A DNA stretch of 64,000 nt from Cellulomonas sp. JZ18 (GTDB taxonomy: Bacteria > Actinomycetota > Actinomycetes > Actinomycetales > Cellulomonadaceae): the NCBI RefSeq assembly GCF_009720485.1, contig NZ_CP045245.1, positions 2,418,001 through 2,482,000 on the forward strand, in the 5' to 3' direction. A program made the translations under genes and the position numbers. Position 1 is the first letter of the stretch. Each line of letters starts with the position of its first letter. Shown in pieces: positions 2,739 through 58,368 of this stretch. The notes beneath the pieces are model-generated. The model worked only from the letters and a program-made list of their open reading frames with translations, did not search any database and was not told the origin of the DNA.

Positions 2739-2773
2739 CCAGCACGACCGCGTGCCGCCGCTGGTCAGGCCCG

Positions 2774-3790
2774 TCAGCCGTGCAGGACGCGCCGCACGTC
2801 CTCGACGTCGCGGGCCATCTGCACGAGCAGCGCGTCGACCCCGTCGAACCGGACGGTCGGGCGCAGCCGCTCCACGAGGTCGAGCACGACCTCCTCGTCG
2901 TACAGGTCGAGGTCCGTCCGGTCGAGCACGTACGCCTCGACCCGGCGCTCCACGCCGTCGAACGTGGGGTTCGTGCCGATGGACACCGCCGCCGGCAGCA
3001 CCCGGTCCGGGTCGTCGGCGCCGACCACGCTGCCGTCCGCGCGCCGCACGCGGCGCAGCCACCCCGCGTACACCCCGTCGGCCGGCACCATCCCGGTCGC
3101 GTCCCGCGAGAGGTTCGCCGTCGGGTAGCCCAGCTCGCGTCCGCGTGCGTCGCCGTGCACGACGAGGCCGCGCACCCGGTGCGGGCGCCCCAGCACGCGC
3201 GCCGCCTGCACGACGTCGCCCGCCGCCAGCAGCTCGCGGACCCACGTCGACGACCAGCGGCGGCGCAGCGCGTCCGCCGCCCGGTCCTCCGCGCTGCCGG
3301 GGTCCGCCGCCACGGACGGCGTGACGTCGTCGATGACCTCGACCGTGAAGCCGTACCGCTCCCCCAGCGCGCGCATCGTCGCGAGGTCGCCCGAGTTCTG
3401 CCAGCCGAAGCGCACGTCGCGCCCGACGACGACGGTCGCGGCGTGCAGCGCGTCCACGAGCCAGCGCCGCACGAACTCCTCGGGCGACTGGCGCGCGAAC
3501 TCCAGCGTGTAGGTGACCAGGAGCACCGCGTCGAGCCCGGTGCCCTCGAGCAGCTCGAGCCGGTCCTCGTCCCCCAGCAGCCGCGGTGGCGCGTCGTCGG
3601 GCCGGTGCACGGCGAGCGGGTGCGGCGTGAACGTCACCGCCACCGCGTGCGCGTGCGCCGCACGGGCGTCGGCCACCATGCGCGTCAGCACCGCGACGTG
3701 CCCGCGGTGCACGCCGTCGAAGTTCCCGATCGTCACGACCGACCGGCCCCAGTCGTCGGGCACCTGCGACAGCTCGGTCCAGACCTGCAC
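2774..3790 (-). CDS. ribF: bifunctional riboflavin kinase / FAD synthetase
   Basis: This 338-residue enzyme phosphorylates riboflavin to FMN and adenylylates FMN to FAD in the cytoplasm. The N-terminal FAD synthetase nucleotidyltransferase motif GNFDGVHRGH is at residues 22-31. The C-terminal flavokinase half begins near residue 200 with GRPHRVRGLVVHGDARGREL and the GYPTANL motif. Length is normal for the family. It starts with GTG (VQVWTELSQVPDDWG). It lies upstream of rpsO with about 130 bases between them. The usual actinobacterial order places ribF near truB; here the cellulase gene separates them. Confidence 0.96.
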   Translation of the reverse strand: MQVWTELSQVPDDWGRSVVTIGNFDGVHRGHVAVLTRMVADARAAHAHAVAVTFTPHPLAVHRPDDAPPRLLGDEDRLELLEGTGLDAVLLVTYTLEFARQSPEEFVRRWLVDALHAATVVVGRDVRFGWQNSGDLATMRALGERYGFTVEVIDDVTPSVAADPGSAEDRAADALRRRWSSTWVRELLAAGDVVQAARVLGRPHRVRGLVVHGDARGRELGYPTANLSRDATGMVPADGVYAGWLRRVRRADGSVVGADDPDRVLPAAVSIGTNPTFDGVERRVEAYVLDRTDLDLYDEEVVLDLVERLRPTVRFDGVDALLVQMARDVEDVRRVLHG

Positions 3791-3918
3791 CCACGCTCCC
3801 GGGTCGACGTCCCGCCCGCCGGTCGGCGGGTCCGACGGACAAGACTGCCACCTGCGGGGCGTCGCGCGTGCACCGCCCGCCCGCCCGGCCGGCGCCGGCG
3901 CACTCCCCGGCGCGCGGA

Positions 3919-3963
3919 CGCCCGCCCCGGTCCCCGTGACGTCGCACGGGACCGGGGCGGGCG
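3919..3963 (-). terminator. strong terminator after the GH9 cellulase
   Basis: Left arm 3919-3938 (CGCCCGCCCCGGTCCCCGTG) pairs with 3945-3963 with a single bulged C and a six-base loop. The stem is almost 20 bp and starts nine bases after the cellulase stop. It should insulate the highly expressed, inducible cellulase from ribF. Confidence 0.8.
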
Positions 3964-3971
3964 CCGGGGGG

Positions 3972-6900
3972 TCAGCGACCGAGGCGCACCGTGAGGGCGG
4001 CGGGCTGGGTCGCGGCCGAGCCTGCCGCGTTGGTGAACACGGCTCGGTACTGCGTCCCGTACGCGAGCGGCGTCACCGGCACGCGCAGGGTGCTGCTGCT
4101 CGCGAACGGCACCGGCAGCCACGGGCCGCGGAACCACCGCACCTGCCACCGCACCGACGGCGCGGGGTACCCCGTCGCCGCGGCGTCGAACGTGGCCCAC
4201 GAGCCCAGCCGCGCCGAGACGGCCGCCGGGTGCCGGGTCACCGCGGGTGCCACGCGCTGCACCGCCACGGCCGCCTCCTGCGACGTCGCCGTGCCGGCCG
4301 TGTTCGTGAACACCGCGCGGTACCGGGCGCCGTCCTCCTGCGCCGTGACCGTCACCGTGAGCGTGCCGGACGTGGCGCCGGGCACGTCCGTCCACGCGCC
4401 GGCGCCGCGGCGGACCTGCCACTGCACCGTCGGTGCCGGGGTGCCCGAGGCCGCCGCCGTGAGCGTCGCGGTGGCCCCGAGGGCCGCCGTGACGCCCTGC
4501 GGCTGCGTCGTCACCTCGGGCGCGACGGCGACCGGCGCCGCCTGCCCGTGGTCGGCGACGAACGAGGCGACCCAGGACAGGACCGAGTTCCAGTTGATGG
4601 TGATCTCGTTGGACGCCCACGAGGAGATCTCGTCGAGGTAGCACCGCGCGGGGGCGCAGCCCTGCGCGAAGGCGGCCTGCATCGTCGGGTCCCACGTGGA
4701 CGTCATCGAGTTGGGACCACCGGCGAGGGACCCGGCCGGCGGGTGCGGCAACGCGGGGTCGAGCTGCGCCGCGAACCAGCGGGAGTGCTGGTTCTGCGAG
4801 AACACCGACCCCCAGCCCGTCACGTAGGACTGGTTGAGCGCGTTGCGGCCGAAGAGGTAGTCGAGCCCCTCCAGCACGCCGTCGAGGTAGCGCTGCTCGC
4901 CCGTGAGGTCGTACGCCGTCGCGATGATGACGAGCACGTTCGCCACGGACGAGTTCGACCCCCACTCGTACTGCCCGCCCGGGGGCGAGTAGACCGAGCC
5001 CCAGGCGTGGGCCGCCTGCGTCTCGAGGTACCCGTCCGCCGCGGCGACGACCGACGCCCGCACGTCGGCCACGCCCGGGAGGTCGTTCGGCACGGTGGCC
5101 AGCGTCAGGCGCGCGAGCGGGCCCACGCTGCCCCAGCTGGCGCCGCCGTGCCCGAAGACGTCCGCGGTGTGCAGCGGGCTGCCGGTCACGTCGGCGGCGT
5201 ACTGCTCCTCGCCCGTCGTGACGAACAGCTCTGCCGCGGCCCAGTAGAACTCGTCCCGCACGTCACGGTCGTCGTAGGGACCGCCGCCGTCGGACCCGGC
5301 CTCGACCGGCGCGTACACGTCCGGGTGCGCCTGCGCGGCGGCGTACGCGTCGCGCGCCGCGGCCAGCAGCGTGTCGGCGAACGCCGCGTCGTACTCGCGG
5401 AACAGGCGCGCGCCCTGCGCCGCGACCGCGGCCAGGTTGAGCGTCGCCGCCGTCGACGGCCGGTGCAGCGACCGCACCTGCGGGTCGTCCGCCGGCATCA
5501 GCGGCAGGCCGGTCCACCCCTCGTCGTGGATCTTGTGGTGGACCAGGCCGGCGTACTCCCCCGCCGGCGCGACCATCTTGAGCATCCACTCGAGCTCCCA
5601 GCGCGCCTCGTCGAGGACGTCCGGGACGCCGTTGCCACGCTCGGGCAGCCGGAGCGTGCTGTCGCCCAGGGCACCCTCGCGGGCGCTCCCCGCCGTCAGG
5701 GTGCGCTCGTACGTCGAGAGCAGCTGCGCGACGGAGATGCCGCCGTTGACGACGTACTTGCCGTGGTCACCGGCGTCGTACCAGCCACCGGTGACGTCCA
5801 GCGTGTAGTCGCACGTCCACCCGTCGTAGTACTCGCGGGGGCCGATGCACGGCACGTCGGTGTCGCCCTTGTTCGGCGGGACCCCGACGTGCCCGGCCTC
5901 GCGGGCGTACTCCTCGCCCACGATCTCCGCCTCGATCGGCGTGCCCGACCGCGCGAGGTAGAAGTAGTTCAGCGCGTCGTAGCGCAGCTGCTCGTACAGG
6001 TCCGCCGCGATCGCGAACGGCCGGCTCGTCTCGCCGTCGGCCACGAGCGTGAAGCCCTCGCCGGTGACGTCGACGTCCGAGAAGTCCACGACGTGCACGT
6101 CGGCGTCGGAGGACTCGTCGTGCCCCGCAGGGGTCGTCGTGCCCTCGGCGACCGTCTCGCCGGAGGCGTCCAGCAGCTGCCACGGCAGCGCCTGCGTCGC
6201 GTCGGTCACCACGGTCGCCCGCTTCGGGCCGTGCGGCAGGTAGCCGACCTGGTTGACGCGCACCCGCGGCCCGGTGTCGGGCTCGTAGGGCGGCGGCGGC
6301 GTGGCGGACGTGGTCAACGACACCTCCGAGATGCAGAACTCGTACGCACCGGTCTTGCCGAGGTGGAACGCCAGCTGGCCCGGCGCCTCACCCTCGGCGG
6401 GGAACGTCAGCGAGCTCGTGAACGGGTAGTCGAGGGTCGTCGCCTCCGTGCCCAGCGGCGCCGAGGCCTGCTCGAAGGCCGTGCGGTAGGCCCCGCCGGC
6501 CTCGCCCACGATGACCCGGACGGGTGTGGCCGGCGTCGTGCGGGCCGTGAACGACAGGACGTAGTTCTCGCCCTCCTCGACCGGCAGGCCGGTGAACGCC
6601 AGACCCGCGTCCCACGGGTTCGACTGCCCGCCCGGCAGGTCGACGCACATCTCCCCGTCGGCGAAGCGCGGGTCGCTCGCGCCGTACAGCCCCCAGGGCC
6701 CCAGGCCCTCCGCGAAGGACGTGTGCGGCAGCAGCTCGGCGTCGCTGCTCAGCTCGACGTCGTCGAGGCAGAACGTCCACGCCTCGTCGGTGAAGCCGCC
6801 CAGCTGGAAGGCGATCTGCCCCTCGGGCGACTCGTCGGTCGCGGTGGCCGGGTAGCTCGCCGTCGCGGTGAACACCTCCTCGACGGGCGTCGGGGTGCTC

Positions 6901-38274: not shown

Positions 38275-39168
38275 TCAGGACGGGTCGGGGACGCCGGCGA
38301 ACGTGTCCGACGGGTTGCGCAGCACGGTCACGCGGTCGAGCGGCCACACGGTGACGAACGCGACGCCGACGATGTTGTCCATCGGCACGGAGCCGCCGCC
38401 GGGACGCCCCTGGTTGAAGCGCGAGTCCGCCGAACGCTGGCGGTTGTCCCCCATCACCCAGACCGAGCGCTCGGGCACGACCACGTCGAACGGCTCCTCG
38501 CTCGGCTGGGCGCCGGCAGCCAGGTACGGCTCGTCGATCGGGACGCCGTTGACGGTGACGGGCTCACCGGGGCCCGCACAGGCCACACGGTCCCCCGGCA
38601 GCCCGATGACCCGCTTCACGAGGTGCTCGCCGGCGTCCTGGGGCAGCAGACCGATCCAGGTCAGGCCGTCCTCGACGGCGGCGGCCACGGGACCGCGCGG
38701 CTCCTCCGCCGTGGGCGGCAGCCAACCACCGGGGTCCTTGAAGACGACGACGTCACCGCGGCGCAGATCGCGCGGTCCGGGAGTGAGCTTGCTGACGAGG
38801 ATCCGGTCGTTCTCGATGAGGGTGTCGTGCATCGACTGCGACGGGATGAAGAACGCCTGCACCAGGAACGTCTTGACGACCAGCGACAGCACGAGCGCGC
38901 TGACGAGGATGATCGCCGTCTCGCGCACCCACGACCAGGCGCCGGAGCGTCGGGCCCGGCCGGCCTCGCGCGCGTGCTCGCGCCGTCGACGGCGGCTGCC
39001 CGCGACCTCGGGGTCGTGCGCCGGCTCCGGCGCGACCCGTCCGTCGCCGCCGGCCGCCGCACCCGTCGGGGGCCACGGCGGCCGCCCGTTCCCGGCACGG
39101 GCGTCGGCGCCCTGCCCGGGGGTCGGCACCGACCCCAGCTGCTCGGCGCGTCGCTCGCTCACGGTCAC
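38275..39168 (-). CDS. lepB: signal peptidase I
   Basis: The general type I signal peptidase, which cuts Sec and Tat signal peptides outside the membrane. The 297-residue protein has a basic/Pro-rich cytoplasmic N-terminus of about 85 residues, a membrane helix ([18 protein letters not shown]), the catalytic Ser in PSQSMHDTL and Lys in [12 protein letters not shown], plus [16 protein letters not shown]. The start is uncertain: GTG at 39168 is used and a second GTG two codons later is possible. Contrast with the Ser-His type SipW-like enzyme at 56449. Confidence 0.93.
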
Positions 39169-39261
39169 ACTCTCGCACGCGGGCGCGTCCGACGGGGCAC
39201 CTGCCCGCCCGCCGGGCCGTCCCACCGGCCGCCTCCTGCGCGACCGTGCGCGGTGGGGACG

Positions 39262-39301
39262 ACGACGGGCGGCCACCGCAGCTGCGGTGACCGCCCGTCG
39301 T
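39262..39301 (-). terminator. rplS terminator, long nearly perfect hairpin
   Basis: ACGACGGGCGG (39262-39272) pairs with CCGCCCGTCGT (39291-39301). After one mismatch the perfect inverted repeat CACCGCAG / CTGCGGTG (39274-39281, 39282-39289) follows. The whole is 40 bases with a minimal loop and begins 15 bases after the rplS stop. Confidence 0.8.
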
Positions 39302-54642: not shown

Positions 54643-55263
54643 TCACGGCTGGCAGAGCACAGGGCCCTGCACGTTCTGGCCTGCCGCCGTCCGGATTCGG
54701 ATCTGCACCATCGTGCTGCCCGCACCGAGCGTTCCGCTCACCTCGGGCAGCGCGGCGCACCGAGACGAGACGCTGCTCACGCCCTGCCCGTCGGTCTGGA
54801 ACCCCACGAGCTCGGCGCCGGTCCACGACCACCAGTCCGGCTGCCCGCCCACGGGTAGACGGGCGGTGAAGTCGACGTAGTAGCCGACCGGCACCGGCTC
54901 CTGGACCTCGCTGCCTGCGTTGATGCCGATCGTGACTTGGCTCTGGTACTCCTGCCAGTACACGTTGCCCCACTGGGCGCCGTCCGGGTAGAGGGACAGG
55001 TTGAGGTGCATGGTGCAGGTGTGCTCGGGCGCGACCTGATGCGTCGTGGCATCGCGTACGACGCACTCGTGAACGAGCTGGGGTGGCTGCGGCGTGGCGG
55101 TCCAGGTGCCCAGGCTGACGTCGGTGCGCACGTTCACGTCATCCGTCCACGCGGCGGACGTGCCGGTCGTGACGCGCGAGGCCGCGACCAGTCCTGCGAC
55201 CAGCAGGCCGAGGACGACGAGCATCGCCCAGACAGGGCGAGTGCGGGGCCGGAGGCGAGTCAT
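54643..55263 (-). CDS. exported protein of the SipW operon with TSAAWTDD signal motif
   Basis: A 206-residue protein. The N-terminus is Arg-rich (MTRLRPRTRP), then a membrane segment (VWAMLVVLGLLVAGLVAAS) and the motif GTSAAWTDD, seen also in the two other exported proteins of this operon. This matches SipW-dependent alternate signal peptides. The rest is beta-rich with two or more cysteines (HECVVRDATT, HTCTMHLNLS, SSRCAALP, PVLCQP) that could form disulfides outside the cell. No enzymatic motif is seen. The ATG overlaps the stop of the preceding gene by four bases. Confidence 0.78.
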   Translation of the reverse strand: MTRLRPRTRPVWAMLVVLGLLVAGLVAASRVTTGTSAAWTDDVNVRTDVSLGTWTATPQPPQLVHECVVRDATTHQVAPEHTCTMHLNLSLYPDGAQWGNVYWQEYQSQVTIGINAGSEVQEPVPVGYYVDFTARLPVGGQPDWWSWTGAELVGFQTDGQGVSSVSSRCAALPEVSGTLGAGSTMVQIRIRTAAGQNVQGPVLCQP

Positions 55264-55805
55264 GCGGTGCTCCCAAGGACGACGATCTCGAGGCCGGTCA
55301 GCACCTGGCCCGCGCAGTCGCCGGGTGTGGCGTCGGGTGCGACACGGAAGGTCACGGTGGTGGTGGTGACGGCCGGTGCGGCGGGGCCGTCCGGGCCGGC
55401 CGGCAGCTGGTTCGTCGGCAGCGAGCCGAGCTCGACGTCGACGCACGCGCCGCCGAGGCCGGCGCTGTCGGTCACCCACTGCAGCCGCAGCGGGACGGTC
55501 GAGGCGTTCCAGAGGTGGAGGGTCCGCGTGACCGGGGCGTCGGGTGTCAGGCCGGTGACCGCGTCGAGCACGACCGCGGTCGCGCCGTCGTCCCCCGGCA
55601 CGTACGTCACCCCGTCCGTCGACCCGCGCAGGTCGACCGCGGTGGCCGCGGAGGCCGAGGCGGAGAACCACGCATCGTCGGTCCAGGCGGCGCTCGTGCT
55701 CGCGACGCCGGCCCCCGTGGCGAGCCCGAGCCCGAGCACGGCGGCCACGGCGGGCAGCCGGCGACGGCGCACGGTGCGTCCGTCCTCGTCCGCGGTCGTG
55801 CTCAC
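55260..55805 (-). CDS. exported protein of the SipW operon with TSAAWTDD signal motif
   Basis: A 181-residue protein with a basic N-terminus (RTVRRRRLP), hydrophobic core (VAAVLGLGLATGAGVA) and the motif STSAAWTDDAWFSASASA, almost the same as in the 57059 gene. The body is Thr/Val-rich and beta-like (TRTLHLWNASTVPLRLQWVT, DCAGQVLTGLEIVVLGS). It resembles the alternate signal-mediated exported proteins (TasA/camelysin-like) of actinobacteria. GTG start at 55805 with GAGGAGGGA upstream; overlaps the neighbours by four bases on both sides, so expression is coupled. Confidence 0.8.
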   Translation of the reverse strand: MSTTADEDGRTVRRRRLPAVAAVLGLGLATGAGVASTSAAWTDDAWFSASASAATAVDLRGSTDGVTYVPGDDGATAVVLDAVTGLTPDAPVTRTLHLWNASTVPLRLQWVTDSAGLGGACVDVELGSLPTNQLPAGPDGPAAPAVTTTTVTFRVAPDATPGDCAGQVLTGLEIVVLGSTA

Positions 55806-56452
55806 GGTTCCCTCCTCGGGAAATGGTGGGGCGTCGGCAGGACCGGTGAGGGGTCGTCGTCCGCGGGCTCGGGCGTCGTCGTCTCGTCGTCGCGCCGGCG
55901 GCGCCGGGCAGCCACGAGCAGGAGGAGCCCCACGAGCGCGGCCGCGAGCGCGGCCAGCAGTAGTGGCAGGGCGTCGGCGCCGGTGAGCGCCAGCGGACCT
56001 CGAGACCCGCGCTGCCCGACCTCCGGTCCGGTGGTGGCGTCGGCGACCACGAGGTGGCCGTCGAGGCTGTAGGTCGCGCCGGGCGCGATGTCGTCGAGCG
56101 CCCTGACCCGAACCGTGAGGTCGTAGTCGCCCGCGGCGACCCGGACCCCGACCGCGTCGGGCGTGACCGGGACGCGCTCGCCCGTCGCACGCGACGAGAG
56201 CCACGCGTCCCACTCGACACCCGTGCCCGGGCGCAGGGCTGTGGTCGTCACCTCGGTGACGACCGCGTCGCGGCTGAGCCGCAGCCCCCAGGCGTGGCTG
56301 TCCACCGACCCGGGCAGCAACCCCGTGAAGGTGGCCCGCAGGGGCGCGGTGCGCGTCGAGGCGGTGGCACTCCCGCCGCCGACCAGCAGGGAGACGAGGG
56401 CGAGGACGACCGCGAGCACGAGGCTCGAGGCCGCGCCCCGGCGCGCGCTCAC
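55802..56452 (-). CDS. surface protein with LAxTG-like C-terminal sorting region
   Basis: A 216-residue exported protein. Signal peptide (ARRGAASSLVLAVVLALVSLL) to about residue 31, a beta-rich body, then LALTGADALP at about 153-162, a membrane helix (LLLAALAAALVGLLLLVA) and RRRRRDDE. LAxTG is the sequence used by class E sortases of actinobacteria. Unlike most sortase substrates, a tail of about 30 Pro/Asp/Thr-rich residues follows the Arg run. No sortase is in the window. GTG start overlaps the signal peptidase gene by four bases. Body lacks a known domain I can name. Confidence 0.78.
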   Translation of the reverse strand: MSARRGAASSLVLAVVLALVSLLVGGGSATASTRTAPLRATFTGLLPGSVDSHAWGLRLSRDAVVTEVTTTALRPGTGVEWDAWLSSRATGERVPVTPDAVGVRVAAGDYDLTVRVRALDDIAPGATYSLDGHLVVADATTGPEVGQRGSRGPLALTGADALPLLLAALAAALVGLLLLVAARRRRRDDETTTPEPADDDPSPVLPTPHHFPRREP

Positions 56453-57003
56453 GACCGCACCTCCTCCGGCACGGACCCCTGCCCCTCCGGCACCACGACC
56501 GCCGACGCTGCCTGCGGCGTCGTCGGCGGCAGGAGGCTGAGGCCCAGTAGTGCGGCGAGCGCGACGCCGAACGGGATCGCGACGGACGGCTGCGTCACGC
56601 GCGCGAGGACGTCGCCGCCCCCGCTGACCTGGGCGACCGGCTGCCACACGCGGTCGCCGACCACGTACGTGCCCCCGTCGGGCGACACGTTCGCGTCGCC
56701 CTTCATGCGCACGTCCCAGCGCCCGTCGCCCGACGGCTCCACGGAGACGACCCGGTGCGACACCAGCCGCCCGGTGTGCTCGTCCCTGATCGTCGCGACG
56801 TCGCCCACCTGCAGCTCGTCGGTGGGCGTCGGCACGGCGAGCAGGAGGTCGCCGGTCATGATCCGCGGCTCCATGGATCCGGAGATCACGACGAGCGGCT
56901 TGACCAGCCCGAGTGCGCTCGCGGCCCACACGAGGACCGACAGCACGCCGACGGCCGCGACGGCCCAGACCGCCGCGCTGCCGACAGCCTTCAGGATCCG
57001 CAT
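56449..57003 (-). CDS. sipW: SipW-type signal peptidase I
   Basis: A 184-residue membrane signal peptidase of the archaeal/ER (SipW) type. An N-terminal helix (KAVGSAAVWAVAAVGVLSVL) is followed by the catalytic SGSMEPRIMTGD (Ser43) and LVSHRVVSVE, where His83 takes the place of the Lys general base of LepB. A second helix lies near the C-terminus. This type of enzyme processes TasA and related proteins in Bacillus. The operon neighbours with shared signal motifs are its likely substrates. ATG at 57003, GGGGAG about six bases upstream. Confidence 0.9.
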   Translation of the reverse strand: MRILKAVGSAAVWAVAAVGVLSVLVWAASALGLVKPLVVISGSMEPRIMTGDLLLAVPTPTDELQVGDVATIRDEHTGRLVSHRVVSVEPSGDGRWDVRMKGDANVSPDGGTYVVGDRVWQPVAQVSGGGDVLARVTQPSVAIPFGVALAALLGLSLLPPTTPQAASAVVVPEGQGSVPEEVRS

Positions 57004-57058
57004 CTCCGCTCCCCAGGTCACGGGGGGCCGGCGCGCGCGCCGGCCCCCGCGTCGTCGG

Positions 57059-57676
57059 TCAGTTGGTGACCGTGCCGGTGAAGGTCACGGTCATGTCACC
57101 GGTCGCACCGAAGTAGCCGGTGTCGGCGTTGGTCCAGTGGGGTGCGGCCAGACGCAGGACCACGGTGGTGCCGGCGTCCGGCGCGAGGGGGCCGACGGTC
57201 TGGGAGTCGCTGGTCCCCGGCAGTGGCTCCGTGCCGGCCGAGTTGAGCAGGGACACCTCGACCGGCTTGGGGCCGTCGAAGAGCCCGCCCGCGGTCTGCT
57301 TCGCGAACGTGCCGGTGACGCTCAGCGGCAGCTCGCCGTCGTTGTGCAGGTACAGCGTGACGTCGCGCGTCTCCCCGGGCACGAAGCCGGCCAGCTGGTT
57401 CGCGGGGACGGAGATGTTCACCGCACCGGACACGTCGTCCGCCTCGACGAGCTTGTCGGCGGACAGACCCCCGAGCAGCTCGATGTCCCCACCGTCGACG
57501 GCGCTCGCGGACGCAGTGAACCAGGCGTCGTCCGTCCACGCGGCGGAGGTCAGCGCCGCGCCGATGCCCAGGAGGGCGACGCCGGCCAGGGAGTACTTCG
57601 CGATCGCGGCCTTCCGACGCTTGCGCTCGTCGCGCTCGGTGGTCGAGGTGACGTCGGGGGACGGCGTGGTGGTCAT
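57059..57676 (-). CDS. TasA/camelysin-like exported protein
   Basis: A 205-residue protein, first in the operon. The basic N-terminus (ERDERKRRKAAIAKY) is followed by a hydrophobic segment (SLAGVALLGIGAALT) and the motif TSAAWTDDAWFTASASAVDGG, then a beta-rich body (VNISVPANQLAGFVPGETR and DVTLYLHNDGELPLSVTGTF). It fits the SipW-dependent exported protein family of actinobacteria (RER_14450-like). Likely a structural surface or matrix protein. The ATG at 57676 has GAGGAGC upstream. The sipW gene follows 55 bases later. Confidence 0.85.
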   Translation of the reverse strand: MTTTPSPDVTSTTERDERKRRKAAIAKYSLAGVALLGIGAALTSAAWTDDAWFTASASAVDGGDIELLGGLSADKLVEADDVSGAVNISVPANQLAGFVPGETRDVTLYLHNDGELPLSVTGTFAKQTAGGLFDGPKPVEVSLLNSAGTEPLPGTSDSQTVGPLAPDAGTTVVLRLAAPHWTNADTGYFGATGDMTVTFTGTVTN

Positions 57677-57981: not shown

Positions 57982-58368
57982 TCAGCCGGCCGGGTGGGCC
58001 GCGTCGTACTCCGCCCGCTCGCGGTCGATCCGCCCGCCGAGGCGCAGCGAGACGACCCACAGCACGACGAAGACGCCGCCGATCACGAACATCATCGGGA
58101 CGAGCACGCCGAACCCGAGGACGGCCAGCTGGGCGACCGTCCCCGCGACGTAGCCGCCCGGGCGGCCGACGTAGCCGGCGAGCAGCAGGAGCACGAGGGC
58201 GGTCACGCCGCCGAGGGTCCACACGGTGGCGGGCGGGGCGACCCGCAGCCCGTAGGCCACGAGCGTCGCGAAGAACACCAGGAGCGCCTCGAGGATCAGC
58301 GTCATCTGGGTGAACTGCGGCTTCGCGGGCCGCTTGCGACCGCCCCGGCCGCCACCGTGCATGCTCAT
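57982..58368 (-). CDS. DUF4233 membrane protein
   Basis: A 128-residue membrane protein with a basic N-terminus and about four hydrophobic helices (LILEALLVFFATLVAYGL, VTALVLLLLAGYV, TVAQLAVLGFGVLVPMM, VIGGVFVVLWVVSL). It matches DUF4233, which in M. tuberculosis (Rv2446c) lies between folC (Rv2447c) and ndkA (Rv2445c). Function unknown. Here the MFS exporter lies 9 bases upstream in the same direction. Confidence 0.85.
   Translation of the reverse strand: MSMHGGGRGGRKRPAKPQFTQMTLILEALLVFFATLVAYGLRVAPPATVWTLGGVTALVLLLLAGYVGRPGGYVAGTVAQLAVLGFGVLVPMMFVIGGVFVVLWVVSLRLGGRIDRERAEYDAAHPAG

Follow-up and report, generated by a model that had tools for sequence, protein, structure and literature searches.

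The closest described system is the tapA-sipW-tasA operon of Bacillus subtilis, where a SipW-type signal peptidase is encoded together with its substrates. These are TasA, a biofilm fibre protein with an N-terminal donor strand and a proline box, and the minor protein TapA, which has a donor strand on a different domain. According to the accessible parts of the sources, TasA-like fibres have been described for Bacillus and archaea, and TasA-like systems are phylogenetically widespread including archaea (PMC10903470). Thus, the kind of system is already known and the actinobacterial operon that we describe here would be a variant of it. In Bacillus cereus, two TasA-like paralogues and a partner (TasA-CalY-CapP) are all processed by SipW; the available part of that study describes a sortase-independent system with a chaperone-like partner and mentions no LAxTG gene (PMC13082335). 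A TasA-like fibre also forms the bundling pili of the archaeon Pyrobaculum calidifontis, as far as the accessible part of the source goes. Chaperone-usher pili (FimA, PapG, CsuA/B) resemble these fibres in the donor-strand exchange of Ig-like subunits with a similar fold, for which we do not claim homology; they are Gram-negative and need a chaperone and an usher. Chaperone-usher pili have lectin tips, which are acceptors, whereas the lectins described below would be donors. In NCBIfam, the model TIGR04088 covers 34 positions of a signal, without function or operon. A search of the open-licence literature returned no description of this operon in actinobacteria, and for SipW and Cellulomonas together it returned, in the parts accessible, only work on B. 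subtilis on cellulose.

The window, i.e. the whole stretch of DNA analysed here, comprises 64,000 nucleotides of Cellulomonas sp. JZ18. Five genes running in the same direction occupy positions 54643-57676 on its minus strand (Table 1), all present as a preliminary description of the sequence had placed them. The 4-base overlaps reported there are exact at three junctions: 56449-56452 (sipW and LALTG gene), 55802-55805 (LALTG gene and gene 4) and 55260-55263 (genes 4 and 5). At the fourth junction, gene 1 and sipW are separated by 55 nt, and this gap contains a strong GC hairpin that was absent from the preliminary description. The motif TSAAWTDD is found behind a hydrophobic stretch in the products of genes 1, 4 and 5. 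A small membrane-protein gene (57982-58368) lies upstream of the operon, as do genes that we take to be MFS-like and TetR-like, and downstream are presumably a nucleoside diphosphate kinase-like and an smc-like gene.

Table 1. Features of the operon in the window (positions count from the first letter of the window).
Feature	Position	Strand	Description
Gene 1 (class A), putative major fibre subunit	57059..57676	-	205 aa; TasA-like beta-sandwich body (predicted) behind a SipW-type signal peptide and a donor strand that is N-terminal in the mature protein (about residues 45-59)
GC hairpin in the gap between gene 1 and sipW	57020..57052	-	folding compared with shuffles
sipW, ER/archaeal-type signal peptidase I	56449..57003	-	184 aa; Ser43/His83
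LALTG wall-anchor protein (putative)	55802..56452	-	216 aa; ordinary-looking signal peptide, LLPG box, LALTG + hydrophobic stretch + RRRR, Pro-rich tail
Gene 4 (class A'), minor gene 1 paralogue	55260..55805	-	181 aa; SipW-type signal + donor strand
Gene 5 (class C), putative fibre end protein	54643..55263	-	206 aa; SipW-type signal + donor strand on separate cysteine-containing domain

We consider it quite probable that the five genes specify an actinobacterial donor-strand fibre of the TasA type. The gene order, the family relations, the sequence signature, the predicted fold of gene 1 and the sortase class were computed; cleavage, polymerisation, tethering and polarity we infer. Cleavage by SipW, probably within TSA-AWTDD, would remove the signal peptides from the products of genes 1, 4 and 5 and leave the N-terminal strand AWTDDxWFxAxAxA free. 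The strand of one gene 1 subunit would then complete the beta-sandwich of the next subunit, as in TasA, giving a fibre made mostly of the gene 1 product with the gene 4 product as a minor subunit. Because the strand of gene 5 is attached to a different domain, its product could close the one groove still empty at the end of the fibre, as TapA does in Bacillus, or form a tip. The wall-bound LALTG protein, having an LLPG box and no donor strand, may tether the fibre, perhaps as the acceptor of its last free strand.

A scan of GTDB contigs with an alignment of SipW resulted in 47 loci, 38 of which (L057-L093 and L103) are of the actinobacterial type. When comparing the gene order among these 38, we find a relative of gene 1 directly upstream of sipW in 35 loci; the homologues are thus linked in relatives, contrary to the case, raised in the preliminary description against its own reading, that they are unlinked everywhere. 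The three exceptions are L067, which ends at the contig edge, and L091 and L093, which carry other SipW-signal proteins at this place. As the same order recurs in relatives, the five-gene arrangement exceeds chance. The earlier reading of a TasA-like, SipW-type export operon with an LAxTG protein is supported. Minimal loci consist of a gene 1 relative, sipW and a class C gene (e.g. L077, L080, L085 and L089). Exact 4-nt overlaps occur at 43 of the 59 junctions after sipW, in a script count that includes a few junctions with an unlisted gene between, has the sipW of L059 entered by hand and leaves L074, whose gene order was read separately, outside. They occur at one of 34 junctions between gene 1 relatives and sipW, a doubtful case (L058) that is probably a long-frame artefact, with a 62-nt gap according to the hairpin analysis; gene calls in the relatives are script-made. 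With eight candidates scored per genome, the gene 1 profile matches at least 76 of 396 genomes of the order and at least 20 of 109 genera (E up to 1e-6), which are hence lower bounds. Among the 76 genomes, 18 score better than 1e-29 and the other 58 no better than 2e-15; from the few inspected, the weaker-scoring group look like a more distant subfamily.

Some loci deviate from this picture. In one relative, two tandem gene 1-type copies precede sipW (L043:3769-5108). In four actinobacterial loci (L045, L046, L047 and L093), a SipW-like peptidase is paired with secreted proteins, several of them behind a SipW-like signal, and we take these proteins to resemble RCC1-type beta-propellers. The operon of L086 (recorded as Sphaerisporangium cinnabarinum) is nearly identical to that of Cellulosimicrobium funkei (L085), and L074 (recorded as Planococcus) carries a Microbacterium-like operon; both records may be misnamed.

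Relative to tapA-sipW-tasA, the Cellulomonas operon has another gene order, a shorter subunit (205 aa compared to 261) and an extra paralogue. New relative to TasA are the sortase-type anchor gene, the exchangeable end proteins and the hairpin between gene 1 and sipW. In the window, this hairpin has a z of -2.70 (86-nt stretch), and 4 of 100 shuffles fold as well. Across 36 such gaps (the window and 35 loci), 15 are matched by at most 5 of 100 dinucleotide shuffles; these are 13 of the 16 Cellulomonas gaps (window counted, genus as given in the records) compared to 2 of the 20 others. The stem sequences vary between species. We propose that the hairpin may act as a partial terminator or 3' stabiliser that keeps the gene 1 message more abundant, and such extra message would suit the role of a major subunit.

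The signal peptidase is of the SipW type, as previously described: it passes TIGR02228 with 66.0 bits (cut-off 51.85). Its Ser/His active site was confirmed as well, as Ser43 and His83 do not vary among the 11 sequences aligned and both regions align with human SEC11A (7p2p, E 2.6e-12). The equivalog model of the Bacillus SipW (NF046067) gave 42.8 bits, far under its cut-off of 190. LepB, encoded at 38275-39276, differs from the window SipW in a sequence that we take to be of the Ser/Lys type. That the peptidase is dedicated to this operon is plausible from linkage but not proven, since the genome has three SipW-like matches in all (the window, C1:826605 and C1:3421960).

The other two matches lie in different surroundings. 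The peptidase at C1:826605 is also of the SipW type (TIGR02228, 64.6 bits) and adjoins a 258-aa protein (locus L148, C1:823500-830500, with genes at 3491-4264 and 2743-3468, both minus). This protein has a weak TasA/M73 match (TasA 19.2 bits, cut-off 450; SipW signal 18.7, cut-off 19), so that the genome may contain two TasA-like systems. The peptidase at C1:3421960 (locus L149, C1:3418000-3426000) lies near a presumed kinase-like gene, which resembles that upstream of the fibre operon in the relatives L033, L034, L037 and L038, and near a gene that we take to encode a LuxR-type response regulator; these neighbours suggest two-component control of such operons. The DNA motif for the SipW-type signal recurs, with two mismatches each, at two more sites of the genome (C1:3013568-3013588, minus, and C1:3303929-3303949, plus).

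By profile comparison, gene 1 is a relative of the Bacillus biofilm fibre protein TasA. Its profile matches TasA with an E of 4.5e-6, or 1.3e-8 with wider relatives, and none of 150 shuffled profiles reach either value. Both the donor strand of TasA and the proline box that this strand touches lie within the matched region. With the wider profile, the match including the donor strand persists without the signal peptide and without L148; with the profile of the gene 1 family and without the signal peptide, TasA is matched at the proline box only. The preliminary description had pointed to TasA/CalY families, which holds for the profile comparison of gene 1 but not for the curated models PF12389 and NF046066, as these match none of genes 1, 4 and 5. 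For the RER_14450-type family, also named there, the NCBIfam search gave no hit at E up to 1, in a library where the presence of the model is unconfirmed. TIGR04088 matches none of genes 1, 4 and 5 at E up to 1, whereas 17 of the 42 relatives of gene 1 are matched by it at E up to 0.01. Gene 4 matches gene 1 relatives of neighbouring species in BLASTP, and its identity to gene 1 in the alignment is 35%. The predicted model of gene 1 has a confident beta-sandwich body with a disordered donor strand; its Foldseek matches are weak, with the Pyrobaculum fibre 7ueg at rank 10 (E 5.2e-3).

PF12389 is named Peptidase_M73, and JGI labels some relatives as 'predicted ribosomally synthesized peptide with SipW-like signal peptide'; the operon could accordingly export a camelysin-like metalloprotease or an antimicrobial, with the products of genes 1 and 4 as secreted enzymes or peptides. 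We regard this as very improbable. Genes 1, 4 and 5 have no meaningful Pfam or NCBIfam family, and the invariant columns of the gene 1 family are Ala, Gly, Thr, Trp, Phe and Asn, without a conserved His/Glu pair. Enzymes or peptides of this kind also fit poorly with a wall-anchor gene and lectin partners.

The donor strand appears to be shared between the exported proteins. In classes A (n=32), A' (n=10) and common C (n=22), the positions +4 to +13 after the Trp are occupied by hydrophobic and polar residues in alternation, to a degree that none of 2000 within-sequence shuffles reaches in any of the three classes; the alternation is non-significant in five lectins (95 of 2000 shuffles) and in three large C proteins (502 of 2000). 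These figures, for which two of the 32 class C proteins (L091 and L093) were excluded, are not probabilities, as the sequences are related. The gene 5 family matches TasA only in the donor strand, over 24 columns (nominal E 0.0062; 0 of 150 shuffles). The family of anchors, aligned from 16 anchor proteins with those of L059, L074, L079, L082 and L088 set aside, matches TasA only in the proline box, over 25 columns (nominal E 0.019; 1 of 150 shuffles, with the reversed profile close). Both matches are weak alone, yet each lies at the part that the fibre model would predict. Nearly all anchors have the motif [LMVF]xPG (14 of 15), but so do a part of the class C proteins (10 of 31) and, within the stretch searched, of the A (19 of 29) and A' proteins (6 of 11); as it is also common outside the anchors, the motif alone is loose.

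A simpler explanation for the shared N-terminus is that SipW exports separate soluble or wall proteins without any fibre, the conserved residues being a recognition sequence only. One peptidase must read three substrates, which could alone conserve TSAAWTD, and both the weak Foldseek matches and the restriction of the signal-free gene 1 family match to the proline box are in line with this. However, in A, A' and C conservation and alternation continue for about 13 residues after the Trp, and signal cleavage usually needs fewer conserved residues than that. Furthermore, with the wider profiles the match to TasA runs through the donor strand even when the signal peptide is left out. We thus consider separate exported proteins unlikely and the donor-strand fibre the better reading.

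Gene 5 is a member of the common C family, for which there is no Pfam family; it has 21-32% identity to 18 relatives and a moderate predicted model (mean pLDDT 67.8, residues 40-58 under 50). Different from tapA-sipW-tasA, the end proteins are exchangeable among the actinobacterial loci. In five loci (L058, L060, L062, L063 and L071), a class C gene of the operon combines a SipW-type signal and strand with a ricin-type beta-trefoil lectin (PF00652, 47.5-55.4 bits, cut-off 29). The scan covered 28 of the 32 class C proteins, and 5 of them have the lectin; one protein of L063 and those of L088, L091 and L093 were outside the scan. The window operon has no lectin. The ricin-type beta-trefoil is here an ordinary carbohydrate-binding fold, for which we do not claim a toxin role. 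Since a beta-trefoil should fold without an extra N-terminal strand, we read the strand of the lectins as a plug.

Also different from tapA-sipW-tasA is the anchor gene. In 20 of the 38 loci the gene next after sipW ends in an LxxTG-type sorting signal, which is LAxTG in 17 of the 20. In the window, the LALTG protein lacks the AWTD strand, and its sorting signal scores 16.8 bits with TIGR01167 (cut-off 15.9) and 16.5 with PF00746, under the cut-off of 20. One PF04203 sortase was found in the genome, and it belongs to class E (NF033747, 249.6 bits). Class E sortases use LAXTG signals, according to the accessible part of PMC5148588, and the LALTG protein is likely a substrate of this enzyme. In Cellulomonas persica (L057:6615 onward) and C. 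gelida (L067:705 onward), the protein at the anchor position keeps a hydrophobic tail and has no sorting motif in its last 75 residues, as if membrane anchoring had taken over from wall anchoring.

The roles of gene 5 and the LALTG protein could also be assigned differently within the main reading. Gene 5 might be a cell-proximal, TapA-like starter, with the LALTG protein as a separate wall protein or an assembly factor. In the available parts of the sources, TapA co-localises with the membrane and is proposed as the first-strand donor (PMC9674648, PMC10151520). The core of gene 1 relative, sipW and class C gene occurs without an anchor gene in some loci, and the similarity between anchors and TasA is weak. 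On the other hand, the anchor gene adjoins sipW in 20 of the 20 loci that have one, and the xPG box is found in 14 of 15 scanned anchors. We consider this assignment doubtful. A further reading, which we put forward tentatively, as one possibility, is a sortase-anchored, lectin-tipped Gram-positive donor-strand pilus with complementary ends, consisting of donor-only end proteins (gene 5 type or lectin), subunits that are donor and acceptor (genes 1 and 4) and an acceptor-only LAxTG base; fibres, polarity and lectin tips we infer. Such a pilus would need neither chaperone nor usher, as exposing the strand would be the work of the signal peptidase itself, and the logic of its ends would be the reverse of that in chaperone-usher pili with their acceptor tips.

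If the fibre reading is true, a group of actinobacteria including cellulose degraders builds TasA-like fibres that would be fixed to the wall via a class E sortase and would carry swapped end domains including lectins. This would show how a donor-strand fibre is anchored and tipped in a cell with one membrane, and it would make testable how such bacteria hold surfaces or plant polymers.
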